Source of the DNA: Alphaproteobacteria bacterium | Lineage (GTDB): Bacteria; Pseudomonadota; Alphaproteobacteria; DSM-16000; Inquilinaceae | Assembly (NCBI GenBank): GCA_028281265.1 | Contig: JANQKE010000087.1 | Span: 1-64,000 of the forward strand | Length of the DNA: 64,000 nucleotides | Reading direction: 5' to 3' | Part shown: positions 1-61,152 of the stretch, one piece after another | How the letters are laid out: each line of letters opens with the position of its first letter | How positions within the stretch are numbered: position 1 is the first letter of the stretch | Translations under genes and position numbers: made by a program | The notes under the pieces: generated by a model | Told to the model about the DNA's origin: nothing | What the model saw: the letters and a program-made list of their open reading frames with translations, nothing else | Databases searched by the model: none

Positions 1-97
1 CTGCGTCCGAACGGACGCAGATAAGATGCTCTAACTCTTTAAACTAGATCATCTTATCTGCGTTCGGATGAGTCCATCTGAACGCAGGATGATCTAG
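1..97 (+). repeat. double-hairpin dispersed element, copy A (left edge cut by window)
   Basis: Hairpin 1 core CTGCGTCCGAACGGACGCAG (1-20) is followed by ATAA and GATGCTCTAA, whose left partner lies outside the window. A linker AACTCTTTAAA leads into hairpin 2 (44-97), starting CTAGATCATC-TTAT and ending GATGATCTAG around the loop AGTC. The same two-hairpin layout recurs at 2326, 18522, 22281, 33198, 41859, 47277 and 61050. One G-T wobble is present in the hairpin 2 stem. Confidence 0.9.
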
Positions 98-188
98 CCT
101 GACCTGCGTTCGGATGAGCCCGTCTGACCGCAGACTAAAGGAGGGAGAGCCTCTCGTCCTGCGTCCGACCGGACGCAGGACGCTCTCA
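98..188. repeat. rearranged double-hairpin element, copy B
   Basis: This copy abuts copy A. A hairpin-2-like stem lies at 104-133 (loop AGCC, degenerate right arm CGTCTGACCGCAG), and a hairpin-1-like stem follows at 145-187 with core CTGCGTCCGACCGGACGCAG and flanks GAGAGC / GCTCTC. The order of the two hairpins is reversed relative to the other copies although the loop of hairpin 2 keeps the forward orientation, so this is a rearranged or decayed partner rather than a simple inversion. It ends about 90 bp past the stop codon of the Lrp-type gene. Confidence 0.75.
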
Positions 189-279
189 AAGATGAGTGTC
201 AGAGCGGGATTCAGACATCACGGGCGACCGCAAACGCGATCGCTCGCAATGCCATCCCGCTCTGGCGGATACGGCCCCG

Positions 280-2325: not shown

Positions 2326-2426
2326 GGAGCATCCTCACGTCCGGACGGACGCGGGGATGCTCTCACTCTTTGAAGGAGATCACTTTATCTGCGTTCAGAT
2401 GAGTCCATATGAACCCAGCTCGATCC
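2326..2426 (+). repeat. double-hairpin dispersed element, copy C (decayed)
   Basis: Hairpin 1 is GGAGCATCC ... GGATGCTC around a mutated core (CACGTCCGGACGGACG). The linker ACTCTTTGAAGG is conserved. Hairpin 2 starts AGATCAC-TTTAT-CTGCGTTCAGATG-AGTC and then loses pairing (CATATGAACCCAG). Decay in hairpin 2 suggests this copy is no longer under structural constraint. It lies downstream of proC and upstream of the desaturase-like gene, both on the minus strand. Confidence 0.8.
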
Positions 2427-2491
2427 AGCCTGGCGGGGTGCTTGACCGCAAAGGTCGATGGGAGATCAGGCTCCCTCGGCGCAAACCGGTA

Positions 2492-18521: not shown

Positions 18522-18626
18522 CTAGAGAGCATCCTGCGTCCTAACGGACGCAGATAAGATGCTCTAAATCTTTGAAATAGATCAACCTGCGTTCAGATGA
18601 GTCCATCTGAACGCAGGTTGATCTAG
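18522..18626 (+). repeat. double-hairpin dispersed element, copy D
   Basis: The left end reads CTAGAGAGCATC and the right end GTTGATCTAG. Hairpin 1 pairs AGAGCATC with GATGCTCT around CTGCGTCCTAACGGACGCAG, with ATAA bulged on its right arm. The linker is AAATCTTTGAAAT. Hairpin 2 pairs AGATCAAC with GTTGATCT and CTGCGTTCAGATG with CATCTGAACGCAG around AGTC, with no bulge. It separates the coiled-coil ORF from fabZ. The remaining 245 bp to fabZ (18627-18871) hold its leader and show no gene. Confidence 0.93.
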
Positions 18627-22280: not shown

Positions 22281-22371
22281 CGCCTCTTACCTGCGTCCGA
22301 CCGGACGCAGATTGAAGTCGATCACCTTACCTGCGTTCAGATCAGTCTATCTGAACGCAGGGTGGTCTGGC
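22281..22371 (+). repeat. double-hairpin dispersed element, copy E (diverged left half)
   Basis: The hairpin 1 core CTGCGTCCGACCGGACGCAG (22291-22310) is intact, but its outer arms no longer pair and the linker is ATTGAAGTC. Hairpin 2 pairs GATCACC with GGTGGTC (one wobble) and CTGCGTTCAGAT with ATCTGAACGCAG around CAGTCT, with TTAC on the left arm. It lies downstream of lpxB and beyond the stop of the small membrane-protein gene on the opposite strand, a convergent position. Confidence 0.82.
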
Positions 22372-33197: not shown

Positions 33198-33300
33198 CTA
33201 GAGCATCCTGCGTCCTAACGGACGCAGGATGCTCTAACTCGTTGAAATATATCAACTTATCTGCGTTCAGATGAGTCCATCTGAACGCAGGTTGATCTAG
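33198..33300 (+). repeat. double-hairpin dispersed element, copy F
   Basis: The ends are CTAGAGCATC and GTTGATCTAG. Hairpin 1 is a perfect pairing of CTAGAGCATC-CTGCGTCC with GGACGCAG-GATGCTCTA(A) around TAAC. The linker is AACTCGTTGAAAT. Hairpin 2 pairs ATCAAC with GTTGAT and CTGCGTTCAGATG with CATCTGAACGCAG around AGTC, with TTAT on the left arm. Its right-hand CTAG contains the TAG stop codon of the minus-strand nucleotidase gene (33297-33299). Confidence 0.95.
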
Positions 33301-34808
33301 TTCTGCCGGACGATCCGGCCTTCGATTTCCGGCGCGACCTCGCCCGCCGCATCGATATGGTCCATCACCTGGGCGGCCATCAGGGTGCCGGCCATCTCAT
33401 CGATCACGCGGGGGGCGTCGGCGAACATGGTGTAGCCGTCCCCGCCGCGGGCCATGAAGTCGTTGGTTGCGAGCACATAGGTCGCGTCCGGATCGATCGG
33501 CGCCCCGCCGACCATCACCTCGACCACCCGTTCCCCGGCCGGCTGTGCCATGTCGTAGACCACCGACAGCCCGGAGACGTGCGGGAACCGGCCGCTGACG
33601 TCTTCGACCCGGCTGAAGCCGTTCTCCAGCGCGGCAACCACATCCGCGCCCGATAGCTCGATCGACACCGTCTTGTTGCCGAACGGCAGCTCGGACTGGA
33701 TGTCCCGGCGGCTCAGCACGGTGCCGGGATCGTAGACCCGATCCGCCCGGATGCCGCCGCCGTTGGTGATCGCGATATCGGCGCCGGTCGCGCTGCGCAT
33801 GGCATCGGCGACGAGGTTGCCGAAGGCGGTCTCACCGCCGCGAACGGACGCACGACGGGTGTCGAGTTCGGTCAGCGTCGTGCCGATCTCGATGTCCAAC
33901 TCGGCGGACAGTTGGTCCAGATAGACCTGGACCGCATCGGTCATGGCCGCGTCCGGTTCCACCATCGCGGTGTCGATGGTCCGGAACGACGGCGTCCAGT
34001 CCACATCGCCATCATCGTCCCGCGTCACGGTCAGGGTGAGTTCCGTCACGTACTCGGCCTGCTCACCGCTTTCGAGCATCAGTTTGCGGCCGTTGTAGAG
34101 CGTCGACACCACATGATCGTCGCCGGACAGGATCAGATCGACCTCGGCCCGATCGAACAGGATCGCGTCTTCGGACAGGTTAGTATGGGCCAACGCCACG
34201 ACGATGTCGGCACCCGCCTCGCGCAGCGCCGCCGCGTGGCCGTTCACCGTCTCCAGCGGATCGGCGAACGTCACGTAACCGGGGCTCGACTTGGCTGCCG
34301 TGTCCGGCGTGGTCAGGCCGATGAAGCCGAAGGTGAAGCCGGCCACGTCGGTGGTCCAGGTCGCTTCGGCACCGTCGATCAGGCTGCCGTCCGGCTCCAT
34401 CGAGTTGGCCGACAGCACGACGAACTCCGCTTCGGCCAGCCGCTCCTTGAGGATATCGGGGCCGAAATTGAACTCATGGTTGCCGATCGCGAAGACATCG
34501 ATCCCGACCTGGTTCAGCAGATCGATCATATGCGCGCCGTCGTCGAAGCCGGACAGCAGCGACGGGGAAATCGCGTCGCCCGCATGGGTGACGATCACCG
34601 GCGTGGCGCCGACGCGGGCGGCGTTGACGACGGCCGCAAACCGCGCGATGCCGCCGCGGCCGTCATCCTCTTCCATCCGGTCGAAATCGTTGACGTGGAG
34701 GAAGGTGATGGTGGCCGACTGCGCCTGGGCGGCCAGCGGAGCCGCGGTCAGCGCCGTGGTGGCGATCAGCGCCAGGCCGAAGCGACGCGAAAAGGGGGTG
34801 ACGAGCAT
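33297..34808 (-). CDS. exported 5'-nucleotidase / metallophosphatase family protein
   Basis: The 503-residue product has a signal peptide (about 1-29, ending AAPLAAQAQS), a metallophosphatase domain (HVNDFDRM, THAGDAISPSLL, IGNHEFNFGPD, VALAHTNLS) and a C-terminal 5'-nucleotidase domain (ITNGGGIRADR, LPFGNKTVSIELSG). It probably releases nucleosides and phosphate from nucleotides in the periplasm. The usual Asp-x-His pair of the first metal motif reads DFD here, so the third residue is Asp. A GGAGG ribosome-binding site precedes the ATG. Its stop codon lies inside the end of a double-hairpin element, yet the C terminus (EIEGRIVRQN) looks complete. Confidence 0.93.
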   Translation of the reverse strand: MLVTPFSRRFGLALIATTALTAAPLAAQAQSATITFLHVNDFDRMEEDDGRGGIARFAAVVNAARVGATPVIVTHAGDAISPSLLSGFDDGAHMIDLLNQVGIDVFAIGNHEFNFGPDILKERLAEAEFVVLSANSMEPDGSLIDGAEATWTTDVAGFTFGFIGLTTPDTAAKSSPGYVTFADPLETVNGHAAALREAGADIVVALAHTNLSEDAILFDRAEVDLILSGDDHVVSTLYNGRKLMLESGEQAEYVTELTLTVTRDDDGDVDWTPSFRTIDTAMVEPDAAMTDAVQVYLDQLSAELDIEIGTTLTELDTRRASVRGGETAFGNLVADAMRSATGADIAITNGGGIRADRVYDPGTVLSRRDIQSELPFGNKTVSIELSGADVVAALENGFSRVEDVSGRFPHVSGLSVVYDMAQPAGERVVEVMVGGAPIDPDATYVLATNDFMARGGDGYTMFADAPRVIDEMAGTLMAAQVMDHIDAAGEVAPEIEGRIVRQN

Positions 34809-35348
34809 CGAGTGCCTCCAGGTCTTTTTCGATACGGTGTCGGGCGATCGCGGCGGATCCGCACCGTCACGCCTTACCGGCGGGATCGGCCGCCGGTTGC
34901 GGGATCGGGGATCCGCCGGCACCGGCCGCACGCTTATAGCGCGGCGGGATGGTGGTTTGGAGACATTTGTCTTGCGGTTCGATGACAGGCACCCCGATTA
35001 CCGCCATGGCATTGGCTGGCCCCGATCCCGTCCGTCCGCCCATGACCGCACGCCCTTTCCACCACTCCGCCGTCCATGACCCGAGCCGACCGGTTGACAG
35101 ATCTCGGCAAGCGACCGCCAGCCCGCGTGATGCTCGGCCGTCGGTGGAGGACGACCTGGTCGCCGCCCTGGCCGTCATCGGTGGCAGGCGGTCGTGTTGA
35201 TGGTCGGTCTTAGCTGCATGGAGATATCACCTGTGATCCACGACCTTGCACAACGATCTTCTGGACTCGATATGAGGAAGCCGACATTGGCGACGATCTG
35301 CCTGCAACTCTGAATCGAGGATACGTTCTACATCCTTGCAATCTCTCC
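34809..35348. other. 540-bp intergenic region without a supported gene
   Basis: This space separates the nucleotidase and amidotransferase genes, which are divergent. ORFs in it (for example 34949-35200 on the plus strand and 34867-35178 on the minus strand) have low-complexity Arg/Pro-rich products and no recognisable motif. The last 150 bp before the amidotransferase gene are AT-rich (ATCACCTGTGAT at about 35227-35238 is a small inverted repeat) and probably carry its promoter. Confidence 0.5.
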
Positions 35349-41559: not shown

Positions 41560-41862
41560 GTGCAGCAGATCCTGCTCGTCATCCATGTGATCATCGCACT
41601 GGCGCTGGTTGCCGTGATCCTGATGCAGCGCAGCGAAGGCGGTGGCCTGGGGATCGGCGGCGGGGGCGGGGGCGGCGTCGTCAGCCCGCGGGGCAGTGCC
41701 AACTTCCTGACCCGGGCGACGGCGGTCCTGGCGGCCCTGTTCATGGGTATGAGCCTGCTGCAGGCCACCATCGCCGCCCGTGGCAGCGAACCCCAAGCCA
41801 TCATCCAGGAGCAGCCCGTGGCCCCGGCCGAACCGGCCGCGCCCCAGGTCCCCCTCAACTAG
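41560..41862 (+). CDS. secG: preprotein translocase subunit SecG
   Basis: SecG is the small accessory subunit of the SecYEG export channel. The 100-residue product has two membrane helices (about 3-22, and 50-70, ATAVLAALFMGMSLLQATIA) joined by the Gly-rich loop QRSEGGGLGIGG, and a Pro/Ala-rich C-terminal tail. A GTG start at 41560 with AAGG upstream is preferred over the ATG 44 codons earlier because the first helix then begins at the N terminus. The TAG stop is within the CTAG that begins the adjacent double-hairpin element; the tail length looks normal. Confidence 0.93.
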   Translation: MQQILLVIHVIIALALVAVILMQRSEGGGLGIGGGGGGGVVSPRGSANFLTRATAVLAALFMGMSLLQATIAARGSEPQAIIQEQPVAPAEPAAPQVPLN

Positions 41863-41962
41863 ATCAGCCTGCATTCAGATGGACTCATCTGAATGCAGGT
41901 AAGGTGATCGACTTCGAAGAGTGAGAGCATCCCTGCGTCCGTTCGGACGCAGGATGCTCCAG
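41859..41962 (-). repeat. double-hairpin dispersed element, copy G (inverted)
   Basis: This copy is reversed: hairpin 2 comes first (CTAGATCAGC, CTGCATTCAGATG / CATCTGAATGCAG around GACT, TAAG and GTGATC), then the linker GACTTCGAAGAGTG, then hairpin 1 (AGAGCATC, core CTGCGTCCGTTCGGACGCAG, GATGCTC). Relative to other copies the stem has G-C changed to A-T in both arms. The left CTAG holds the secG stop codon. The rest of the 333 bp before pyrG (41963-42195) shows no gene and should contain the pyrG promoter. Confidence 0.93.
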
Positions 41963-46965: not shown

Positions 46966-47280
46966 ATGTCGCTTCGCACCGCCCTCTCCCGCACCGTAAA
47001 GGCCATCTGGATCCCGGCGGCGTTCCTGCTGCTGGCCGGCTATCTGGGTTACCACGCCTATGAAGGGGAACGGGGGTGGCGGGCTCAGCACCTGCTCGCC
47101 GACCGGATCGCCGTTGCCGAGGCCCGATGGACGACCGTAGTCGAACAACGGCGGACGCTGGAGCGCCGGGTCGAAGCGCTGGCACCCGGCGCGCTGGATC
47201 GCGACCTGCTCGATCAGCAGGCGAGGCTTCTCCTGGGCTATGGCCGGCCGGACGAGTTGCTGCTCTACATCCGTCCCTAG
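46966..47280 (+). CDS. ftsB: septum formation initiator family protein FtsB/DivIC
   Basis: The 104-residue product has an N-terminal membrane helix (about 12-30, IWIPAAFLLLAGYLGYHAYEG) and a periplasmic coiled coil (about 40-70, IAVAEARWTTVVEQRRTLERRVEAL), then a conserved DRDLLDQQARLLLGYGRPDEL. It is the FtsB-type linker of the divisome between FtsL and FtsQ. ATG at 46966 is preferred; a GTG 9 bp upstream is possible. The TAG stop lies in the CTAG that opens a double-hairpin element, but the protein end (DELLLYIRP) is normal. Confidence 0.9.
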   Translation: MSLRTALSRTVKAIWIPAAFLLLAGYLGYHAYEGERGWRAQHLLADRIAVAEARWTTVVEQRRTLERRVEALAPGALDRDLLDQQARLLLGYGRPDELLLYIRP

Positions 47281-47383
47281 ATCATCCTATCTGCGTCCGA
47301 ACGGACGCAGATAGGATGATCTAACTCTTTGAAATAGATCAGCCTGCGTTTAGATGAGCCCATCTGAACGCAGGCTGATCTAG
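47277..47383 (+). repeat. double-hairpin dispersed element, copy H
   Basis: Hairpin 1 pairs CTAGATCATC-CTAT with ATAG-GATGATCTA around the core CTGCGTCCGAACGGACGCAG: the four-base module is present in both arms and pairs, and the outer stem differs from other copies (GATC instead of GAGC) on both sides. The linker is AACTCTTTGAAAT. Hairpin 2 pairs AGATCAGC with GCTGATCT around AGCC. The left CTAG contains the ftsB stop codon. The following 217 bp to pdhA show no gene and hold its promoter. Confidence 0.95.
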
Positions 47384-48617: not shown

Positions 48618-48707
48618 CCGGAACTTCTTCAAGGCCGCACTGCCGCGCTCCGGCTCTCCGGGGCCGGCTGGTGGTGCGTCCCCAGCGGGTTGAGGGAACC
48701 CAAGTCC

Positions 48708-50102
48708 ATGCCCATCGAAGTGCTGATGCCGGCTCTGTCTCCGACGATGACGGAAGGGACCATCGCGAGCTGGCACAAGAACGAAGGCGACCCCGTCGCG
48801 ATCGGCGACGTCATCGCCGAGATCGAAACCGACAAGGCGACCATGGAAGTCGAGGCGGTCGAAGAAGGCACGCTCGGCAGGATCCTGGTGCCCGAAGGTA
48901 CCGAGAACGTCGCCGTCAACACCCCGATCGCCCTGTTGCTGGAGGAGGGGGAGGAGAGCGCGGCCCTGGACGGCGCGGCCGCCGCGCCGGTCGCATCCGC
49001 CCCGCCCCCGTCCGCGGTGGAGACACAAGCGCCGACCCCGACCGTGCCGGCAGCACCGGCATCGGGAACGGCCGACGACGACGCGGCTGCACAGGCCGAA
49101 GCCGCCCATTTCGCCGACACCCGGACCCTGACCGTGCGCGAGGCGTTGCGCGACGCCATGGCCGAGGAGATGCGGCGCGACGACAGTGTCTTCGTCATGG
49201 GCGAGGAGGTCGCCGAGTATCAAGGCGCCTACAAGGTCACTCAAGGCCTGTTGGACGAGTTCGGCGCCCGGCGGGTGATCGACACGCCGATCACCGAGCA
49301 CGGCTTCGCGGGCCTCGGAGTCGGGGCCTCGTTCGCGGGTCTGCGGCCGATCGTGGAGTTCATGACGTTCAACTTCGCCATGCAGGCGATGGACCAGATC
49401 ATCAACTCCGCGGCCAAGACCCTGTACATGGCCGGCGGCCAGTTGGGGGCACCGATCGTCTTCCGCGGCCCCAACGGGGCGGCCGCCCGGGTTGCCGCCC
49501 AGCACAGTCAGGACTATGCGCCTTGGTACATGTCGGTGCCGGGTCTGAAGGTCGTCAGCCCCTGGTCGGCCGCCGATGCCAAGGGGTTGCTGAAGGCGGC
49601 GATCCGCGATCCGAACCCGGTCATCTTCCTGGAGAACGAGATCCTCTACGGGCAGAGCTTCGATGTGCCGACCGATGAGGAGTTCGTCCTGCCGATCGGT
49701 AAGGCCAAGGTCGAACGGACCGGCGGCGACGTCACCATCGTGGCCTATTCGATCATGGTCGGCAAAGCGCTCGAAGCCGCCGAGACCCTGGCGGAGGAGG
49801 GGATCGACGCCGAGGTGATCAACCTGCGCAGCTTGCGCCCGCTGGATACGGCGACCATCGTCCGTTCGGTGCAGAAGACCAATCGCCTCGTCGTCGCCGA
49901 GGAGTGCTGGCCGACCTGCGGCGTCGGTGCCGAGATCGCCGCGCGGATGATGGAGGTGGCGTTCGATCACCTCGACTCCCCGGTGCATCGGGTCAGCGCC
50001 GTCGACGTGCCGCTGCCCTATGCCGCCAATCTCGAGAAGCTTGCGCTGCCGCAACCCGACCGCATCGTCACGGCCGCCAAGGCCGCCTGCTACCGCGATT
50101 GA
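48708..50102 (+). CDS. pdhB: pyruvate dehydrogenase E1 component subunit beta with N-terminal lipoyl domain
   Basis: The 464-residue product joins a lipoyl domain (about 1-78, lipoylated lysine in [12 protein letters not shown]) to the E1 beta chain through an Ala/Pro linker (about 85-125). The E1 beta part has the [19 protein letters not shown] start, [26 protein letters not shown] and [21 protein letters not shown] lipoyl-bearing E1 beta is known from several Alphaproteobacteria. The lipoyl domain is almost the same as that of PdhC next door. The ATG lies 90 bp after pdhA. Confidence 0.97.
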
Positions 50103-50164
50103 GCCCTTGCCGGTCGGCCCCGTCACGAACCGCCGGCCGGCCCCTGATCCGGGAAACACGCCCC

Positions 50165-51484
50165 ATGCCGATCCAGATCCTGATGCCGGCGCTGTCGCCG
50201 ACCATGACCGAAGGCACGCTCGCCACCTGGCAGAAGAAGGAAGGCGAGGTGGTGGCGATCGGTGACGTGATCGCCGAGATCGAAACCGACAAGGCGACCA
50301 TGGAGGTCGAAGCCGTCGAGGAAGGCACGCTGGGCAGGATCCTGGTGGCCGAAGGCACCGAAGGGGTGGCGGTCAACACGCCGATCGCGGTGCTGCTGGA
50401 GGAGGGCGAGGACGCCGCCGCGCTGGATCAGGCGGGCACCCCTGCCGCCCCCGCCCCGCAGGAAACGGCACCCGCTCCCGCGGCGCCGGTCCCCGTAGCC
50501 CCGGTGACCGCTCCGGCCTCTGCCGGCGCGCCTGCAGCCGGGGCGCGGGTGTTCGCCAGCCCGCTTGCCCGGCGCATGGCCCGGCAGGCCGGCCTGGATC
50601 TGGCGGCGATCGCCGGGTCGGGTCCGAACGGCCGGATCGTCAAGGCGGATATTGAGGCCGCTCTGGCCAAGGGGCCGGCCCCGGTGGCCGCGGCACCGAC
50701 CCCGGCAGCGCCCGCGCCCACACCGAGTCTTCCGGCCGCGGCCGCGGCCGCGACGTCGGGGCCGGACGCCAAGGCCCTGGCCGATGCCTACGGCATTCCC
50801 TACACCCTGCAGAAGAACAGCGGCATGCGGAAGACCATCGCCCGCCGCTTGGGTGAATCCAAACAGACCGTCCCGCATTTCTACCTTACGGTCGAGTGCG
50901 AACTCGACGCGTTGCTCACGTTGCGCAAGGATCTCAACACCCGGGCCGAGGCGTCCGGCGTCAAACTGTCGGTGAACGATCTCGTCATCAAGGCCGCCGC
51001 CGCGGCCTTGCGCAAGGTGCCGGGGGCCAATGCCTCCTGGGCCGAGGACGCGATCCTGCTCTACGATCGGGTGGATATCTCGGTCGCGGTGGCGACGGAT
51101 GGGGGGCTGATCACCCCGATCATCAAGGATGCCGACAGGAAGGGGCTCGCGGCCATCTCCGCCGAGATGAAGGACCTCGCCGCCCGGGCCCGGGACAACA
51201 AGCTCAAACCCGAGGAGTTCCAGGGCGGCACCTTCTCCCTCTCCAATCTCGGCATGTTCGGGATCAAGGAGTTCTCGGCCATCATCAATCCGCCGCAGGG
51301 ATGTATTCTGGCGATCGGAGCCGGGGCGCAGCGACCGGTGGTCAAGGACGGTGCGCTGGCCATCGCCACGGTGATGTCGGCCACCCTGTCGGTCGATCAC
51401 CGGGTCGTCGACGGTGCCTTGGGGGCACAGTATCTGCAGGCCTTCAAAGCCCTGATCGAGGATCCGATCGGTCTGATGCTGTGA
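50165..51484 (+). CDS. pdhC: pyruvate dehydrogenase E2, dihydrolipoamide acetyltransferase
   Basis: The 439-residue product has one lipoyl domain (about 1-78), a Pro/Ala linker, a peripheral subunit-binding domain (about 133-168, VFASPLARRMARQAGLDLAAIAGSGPNGRI), a second flexible linker and the acetyltransferase domain (about 220-439) ending with the catalytic DHRVVDGALGAQYLQAF. It forms the core of the complex and makes acetyl-CoA for citrate synthase. The start codon follows pdhB by 62 bp. Confidence 0.98.
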   Translation: MPIQILMPALSPTMTEGTLATWQKKEGEVVAIGDVIAEIETDKATMEVEAVEEGTLGRILVAEGTEGVAVNTPIAVLLEEGEDAAALDQAGTPAAPAPQETAPAPAAPVPVAPVTAPASAGAPAAGARVFASPLARRMARQAGLDLAAIAGSGPNGRIVKADIEAALAKGPAPVAAAPTPAAPAPTPSLPAAAAAATSGPDAKALADAYGIPYTLQKNSGMRKTIARRLGESKQTVPHFYLTVECELDALLTLRKDLNTRAEASGVKLSVNDLVIKAAAAALRKVPGANASWAEDAILLYDRVDISVAVATDGGLITPIIKDADRKGLAAISAEMKDLAARARDNKLKPEEFQGGTFSLSNLGMFGIKEFSAIINPPQGCILAIGAGAQRPVVKDGALAIATVMSATLSVDHRVVDGALGAQYLQAFKALIEDPIGLML

Positions 51485-61049: not shown

Positions 61050-61152
61050 CTAGAGCATCCTGCGTCCGAACGGACGCAGGATGCTCTAGCTCTTTGAACT
61101 AGATCATCTTATCTGCGTTCAGATGAGTCCATCTGAACGCAGGATGATCTAG
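61050..61152 (+). repeat. double-hairpin dispersed element, copy I (most complete copy)
   Basis: Both hairpins are perfect. Hairpin 1 pairs CTAGAGCATC-CTGCGTCC with GGACGCAG-GATGCTCTAG around GAAC. The linker is CTCTTTGAA. Hairpin 2 runs from CTAGATCATC-TTAT to GATGATCTAG, with CTGCGTTCAGATG pairing with CATCTGAACGCAG around AGTC. Each hairpin is bounded by CTAG on both sides in this copy. It occupies the space between the divergent starts of ispDF and dusB, 28 bp upstream of ispDF. Confidence 0.97.

Follow-up and report, generated by a model that had tools for sequence, protein, structure and literature searches.

A double-hairpin intergenic repeat in an alphaproteobacterial genome whose ends often serve as stop codons of neighboring genes

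Two-palindrome repeats of rhizobia and Brucella have been on record since the 1990s as sequences with no known function. Among them, the Rhizobium-specific intergenic mosaic elements (RIME) were reportedly published in 1995 as two-palindrome repeats of rhizobia. REPs are 20–40 bp long, carry an unpaired tag, and are linked to Y1 transposases. We know of no double hairpin in RUP, a repeat of Streptococcus pneumoniae. RUP is a 107-bp non-autonomous element that inserts at TA and is thought to be moved by IS630-Spn1 (PMC2229807). In Brucella, the palindromic repeats Bru-RS1 and Bru-RS2 measure 103 and 106 bp (PMC10800456), and IS711, which has a preference for Bru-RS repeats, duplicates the TA of its YTAR target (PMC2266754). 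GTAG-tagged REPs, which are palindromic and intergenic, often provide the TAG stop of flanking genes (PMC3733652).

The element described here, termed family 1, is about 103–108 bp long, contains two large palindromes, and is intergenic. It resembles RIME and the repeats of rhizobial plasmids in having two palindromes, a length of about 105 bp, an intergenic location, and CTAG or CTAA ends. The rhizobial repeats also have a linker containing CAAAGAG and the 4-nt insert in an inner arm that are seen in family 1; however, their hairpin sequences differ, and the rhizobial loci are likened to RIME1/RIME2 by description. The likeness to Bru-RS, also drawn by description, lies in size, palindromes, and the link to TA/YTAR via IS711, but Bru-RS repeats are targets of IS711, and being a target differs from being moved. 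RUP has the terminal repeats of IS630-Spn1, whereas family 1 has only the IS630 tip in common. Family 1 also differs from REPs: it is a double hairpin of 104 bp in which the terminal CTAG is paired, and not a palindrome with an unpaired GTAG/CGTC tag.

The window (the whole 64-kb stretch of DNA that was analyzed) contained eight copies of family 1, an element of about 104 bp with two hairpins and a linker, as well as rearranged ones. The eight copies listed in a first-pass annotation of this DNA were all found in the window sequence. With up to three mismatches allowed, the core CTGCGTCCGAACGGACGCAG gave 16 matches in the window, compared with 0.03 expected. The features were as follows, where family 2 is a second two-hairpin element:

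1–97, plus strand: family 1 copy; the contig start removes the left 10 bases
96–186, minus strand: degenerate family 1 element, part of a chimera with family 2
138–263, minus strand: family 2 copy, two hairpins, consensus of about 131 bp, CTAGAGCGGGATGGCGTTAGG...; overlaps the degenerate family 1 copy
2326–2429, plus strand: diverged family 1 copy
18522–18626, plus strand: family 1 copy; hairpin 1 has an ATAA insert in its inner arm, hairpin 2 has none
22281–22371, plus strand: diverged family 1 copy with an internal deletion
33198–33300, plus strand: family 1 copy; its right CTAG (33297–33300) is the TAG stop of the minus-strand gene 33297–34931
41859–41962, minus strand: family 1 copy; CTAG 41859–41862 gives the upstream gene on the plus strand (SecG, TIGR00810, E 9e-22) its TAG stop
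47277–47383, plus strand: family 1 copy; hairpin 1 has a 4-nt insert in each arm, and the upstream gene on the plus strand takes its TAG stop from the left CTAG of the copy (47277–47280)
61050–61152, plus strand: reference copy of family 1; TA, GAGCATCCTGCGTCC-GAAC-GGACGCAGGATGCTC (hairpin 1), linker CTCTTTGAA, hairpin 2 with TTAT in the inner arm, TA; flanked by C and G

The rearranged copy reported at 98 was present, but it is in fact a minus-strand chimera in which the degenerate element is joined to half of a copy of family 2, a related repeat. The description of all copies as lying between genes was an understatement; it holds for the copy at 61050, which sits between divergent genes, whereas those at 33198, 41859, and 47277 supply the TAG stop of a neighbor. 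The window also contained a direct repeat of 278 nt (48706–48983 and 50163–50440; 81% identity, 1,457 bp apart), which is unrelated to the element and is possibly duplicated coding sequence.

Hairpin 1 of the family 1 unit consists of TA, GAGCATCCTGCGTCC, the loop GAAC, and GGACGCAGGATGCTC; it is followed by a linker close to AACTCTTTGAA and by hairpin 2, which reads TAGATCA(A/T)CTTATCTGCGTTCAGATG, loop AGTC, CATCTGAACGCAG..TGATC, and then TA. Family 1 has terminal inverted repeats, no ORF, and many dispersed copies, and its terminal CTAG is paired inside each palindrome. The copy at 61050 was predicted to fold into two hairpins (−73.1 kcal/mol, z = −13.7), with similar values for the opposite strand (about −73 kcal/mol, z = −12.3). 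In one arm pair of hairpin 2, two-sided changes (AU to UA and others) occurred in 11 of 31 sequences, indicating that this palindrome is maintained. The TTAT insert mentioned earlier was also seen, and its placement was non-random: inserts of 4 nt (TTAT/ATAA and variants) were found, in the copies scored, mainly in the two inner arms (99/148 arms) and rarely in the outer arms (12/144). Each hairpin may correspond to two transposon ends placed head to head, with the insert probably marking the inner arms as non-functional ends.

As the first-pass annotation had proposed, the whole genome was scanned with a covariance model, and the repeat was found well beyond the window, with at least 150 genome matches. 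The model was built from 31 copies and matched all 150 genome candidates that were scored, and a search with the arm pattern gave 502 matches in the genome, compared with two for a reversed control pattern. In 435 kb read directly (the window plus L111–L130, stretches picked among contigs with matches), 58 full or partial copies of family 1 were counted. By extrapolation, the 4.33-Mb genome likely carries about 400–600 copies, with at least 150 supported by score. At least 35 of the 150 listed matches start at base one of a contig. Breaks of the draft assembly at element copies account for some of its 232 contigs and make the copy numbers lower bounds. Many contigs start inside a copy, among them C4, C10, C21, C23, C29, C35, and C57.

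Within the 435 kb, copies ranged from near-identical to heavily decayed, implying that family 1 has both a history and recent activity. Also present were solo hairpins bordered by CTAG on either side (e.g., C76:72374–72422). Chimeras of family 1 and family 2 occurred as well (e.g., C158:8755–8861), suggesting that hairpins are exchanged as modules. Solo hairpins were also seen in L109 (154–194, 2891–2938, and 3012–3044), and among them lies an IS5-type insertion sequence that is about 916 bp long and has TCA at either side. Family 2 gave about 20 matches in the 435 kb; its consensus of about 131 bp reads CTAGAGCGGGATGGCGTTAGGTGCGATCGC...GTCACCCTCATGTCATCTTGCTCTAG and has a similar CTTTGA linker.

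When 99 copies were aligned to the consensus ends, conservation dropped immediately outside the TA. The base inside the TA was G in 96/99 copies on the left and its complement C in 99/99 on the right, and the base outside was C in 70 and T in 16 on the left and G in 88 and A in 8 on the right, i.e., YTAR. A mirrored preference for G and C appeared three bases further out (49/99 and 56/99). This profile fits a putative palindromic target, GNNYTARNNC, in which the TA would be duplicated. At three loci (L113, L118, and L016), neighboring elements had one CTAG in common, and at L016 these were a family 1 and a family 2 element. CTAG was about tenfold rarer in the 435 kb of this genome than expected by base composition (132 vs 1,272), and 67 of these sites, half of the total, were element ends located within 1.3% of the sequence.

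Matches to the element were detected in 7 of 17 genomes of the same bacterial family (chiefly G003 with 33, G009 with 14, and G006 with 11) and in 9 of 143 genomes of a class-wide sample, including 26 in G092, which belongs to another family. The left part of the G092 element reads CTAGAGCATG GCGCGTCC AAGT GGACGCGC GGTC CATGCTC, followed by the linker, and the right part reads GATCAAA TTAT CCAATCTTAGGCG ATTC CGCCTAAGATTGG TTTGATCTAG; its sequences are others than those of family 1, with the same plan and a 4-nt insert in each inner arm. Genome G135, from another bacterial family, contains 140-bp elements (G135:C7:32783–32922, G135:C3:739288–739427, and others), both strands of which match the model about equally; they appear to be a near-symmetrical version of the element. 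A blastn search detected homologues of family 1 on five Sinorhizobium plasmids, and a query with a rhizobial two-hairpin sequence gave 246 plasmid records. The covariance model matched three rhizobial loci over the full length of the model (E 1.7e-7, 7.6e-6, and 1.5e-3), and the insert of the rhizobial elements is at the same inner-arm position as in family 1. The view that the repeat belongs to no described family therefore stands in part: Rfam gave no match for the window and no named repeat matched, but homologous two-hairpin elements occur in rhizobia, where RIME and Bru-RS of the same size are known.

An empty site was obtained for one of these relatives: the two flanks of an element in Bradyrhizobium sp. 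186 were joined through a single TA, and the product was used as a query against plasmids. An uninterrupted site was found in Bradyrhizobium sp. 195 (556/556 bases at 94.6%), where the ends of two convergent coding sequences share just the four bases TTAG. The filled site in Bradyrhizobium sp. 186 reads GACC-TA-[AAGCATGATCC...GTCGCGCTT]-TA-GTCC, and both convergent stops are rebuilt there, as TAA. The HlyD protein has FRED at its C-terminus in both the filled and the empty plasmid, and the codon at which the response regulator ends is likewise unchanged. For the rhizobial homologue, these results show that the TA of YTAR is duplicated and that the insertion is neutral for the stops. The comparison of occupied and empty sites suggested earlier has thus given an exact empty site for that homologue, while the corresponding information for family 1 is its end profile; we infer the same transposition reaction for family 1. 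G003 was too distant (about 70–80% in genes) for family 1 empty sites, and gene ends alone were compared with it. Mesorhizobium flanks gave a two-piece match of about 71% in Ensifer in which the junction was not readable, and a search of plasmids with the L033 flanks gave no clear empty site.

Genes were called with a codon-based gene finder, and part of them were checked against profiles and orthologues. In the genome of the window, 31 element ends had a gene running into them, and the terminal TAG was in frame in 26 (p = 1e-8); in one additional case, the in-frame stop was shifted by one base by the alignment. At non-element YTAG sites, used as a control, the three frames were represented 8, 12, and 5 times, i.e., 8/25 in frame, where one third was expected. 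The in-frame position of the terminal TAG was replicated in G003 (6/7) and in G092, from another family (7/8). Pooled over the three genomes, 39/46 ends were in frame (p about 8e-13 against one third, the relatedness of copies being uncorrected). For family 2, one of only two cases was in frame. Stops of the form Y-TAG were found 15 times within elements and 10 times elsewhere, compared with 3 and 44 for R-TAG. In the public annotation of rhizobial plasmids, genes ending on an element lie on both sides of L035, and there is one at L037 and one at L311.

The genes stopping on an element TAG include rpoA, dnaB, hisS, nrdB, secF, secG, rpoN, trkA, ribH, and superoxide dismutase. Their C-termini were complete by profile coverage (TrkA 458/458, RpoA 336/338, HisS 405/406, and RpoN 511/515 positions), and RpoA, DnaB, HisS, NrdB, RpoN, RibH, and superoxide dismutase reached to within 1–6 positions of the end of the family profile. 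TrkA stops at the same position as 66/66 orthologues, which use TGA, TAG, or TAA; this set leaves out the genome itself, and its nearest members are 67% identical, from Magnetospirillum and other Rhodospirillales. Of the G003 homologues, all six whose end could be read have their stop within two residues, and G003 RpoA (86% identical) has TGA at the same codon position. Taken together, these data show that the element occupies stop codons in this genome with the proteins left intact.

We propose, with a probability of roughly 0.83, that family 1 is a non-autonomous, MITE-type element whose insertion site is the TA of YTAR and which rebuilds stop codons, so that it can land neutrally in them. 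Two head-to-head pairs of terminal-repeat-like arms, forming the two hairpins, would be joined by a short linker, and a transposase supplied in trans would insert the element into the TA of YTAR (mostly CTAG), duplicating the TA. As the element's outermost base next to the TA is G, or A for the rhizobial relative, TAG or TAA would be rebuilt at either end and in either orientation. The insertion would then be neutral for the protein, whether at one stop or at a CTAG common to convergent stops, and elements would accumulate there. The earlier suggestion of a BIME or MITE element is upheld for MITE by the inverted repeats, the lack of an ORF, the hundreds of copies, and the TA duplication of the relative; the BIME part is not supported, as the search for PF01797 gave no match in the genome and the element ends are unlike REP tags.

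Alternatively, the elements might be kept at gene ends by a function as mRNA 3' hairpins, such as transcription end, 3' protection, or ribosome stalling, and not by neutrality. Very stable hairpins start at the stop codon itself, and ribosome stalling has been reported for REPs that lie within 15 nt of a stop codon (PMC12306157). Family 1 copies are also over-represented in convergent gaps (15 vs 6.7 expected by intergenic length) and under-represented in divergent ones (7 vs 14.9; p = 7e-4), but this bias also follows from avoidance of promoters and genes. Moreover, placement at stops shows no orientation bias (13 left and 13 right ends), seven copies, that at 61050 included, lie in divergent gaps, copies form a continuum of decay, and the Bradyrhizobium site is a clean TA insertion that needs no benefit. 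We consider this explanation unlikely, at about one chance in four, compared with neutral landing in stop codons.

The transposase that moves the element is, with somewhat better than even odds, of the IS630 (Tc1/mariner) type. Transposases of this type duplicate TA and bind the ends with two helix-turn-helix motifs (PMC2170065). The first-pass annotation had suggested looking for an insertion sequence with matching terminal inverted repeats, and the match was partial. The tip CTAGAGC was present on IS630 copies of this bacterial family (L314, 1,049 bp, with both ends; L323, 1,057 bp; L315; L320 and its repeats; L322; and L329) and on an IS630 of this genome (L106), but no transposase with the full family 1 end TAGAGCATCCTGCG was found among the IS630 copies examined. 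One end of L315, CTAGAGCGGGATG, matches family 2 over 13 bases. In this genome, IS630 is represented by fragments only, and it was not detected in the element-bearing genomes G006, G009, G092, and G135. Multi-copy IS630 elements of G013 that end in CTAGAGCATTTTCCGATCAGTC (L320, L324, L328, and L330–L335) are candidate helpers for relatives of the element.

A mover of the IS5 family (IS427/IS711-type), which also duplicates TA in YTAR, is a less probable candidate, to which we give about one chance in five. The target of IS711 and its preference for Bru-RS (PMC2266754) are in its favor, as are the IS5-type copies of this genome and one diverged match in G092. However, the ends of the copies in this genome are unrelated (GAGTCCATCCGAGAA; one copy has TCA at either side), no IS5-type element was found in the element-bearing G003, G006, G009, and G135, and it is the IS630 copies of the clade that have the CTAGAGC tip.

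Movement as a BIME/REP element by RAYT (TnpA-REP), for which a search had also been suggested, is very improbable: hundreds of palindromic intergenic copies would be consistent with it, and GTAG-tagged REPs also often give TAG stops (PMC3733652), but PF01797 (Y1 transposase) had no match in the genome in a search that was positive in E. coli and Caulobacter, and a double hairpin of 104 bp, with its CTAG ends paired and the TA duplicated, is unlike a REP with an unpaired tag. Insertion at random inside genes, with loss of their C-termini, would place the TAG in frame once in three cases, but the counts of 26/31, 6/7, and 7/8 exceed this, and truncation, still less probable, was ruled out for the genes checked, whose C-termini were complete by profile and orthologue comparison.

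Family 1 thus adds a new sequence family to the alphaproteobacterial two-palindrome repeats, a kind of element that is old but poorly understood. In the literature searched, which excluded most subscription papers, no report was found of a stop-codon effect for two-palindrome elements; the effect has a precedent in the GTAG-tagged REPs, a different kind of element (PMC3733652). We lean towards the wider view that these elements form a widespread alphaproteobacterial superfamily of double hairpins with stop-rebuilding ends, whose principal neutral landing sites would be stop codons, both those of essential genes and those that overlap between convergent genes.

TA insertion combined with a stop-rebuilding end would account for both the spread and the placement of two-palindrome repeats, since landing on the 3' end of an essential gene would cost the protein nothing. 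The resulting rule can be put to the test in any strain collection: a terminal TAG or TAA in frame, a duplicated TA, and a CTAG common to convergent stops. It also carries a warning for annotation, because many TAG stops in such genomes would be part of mobile DNA.
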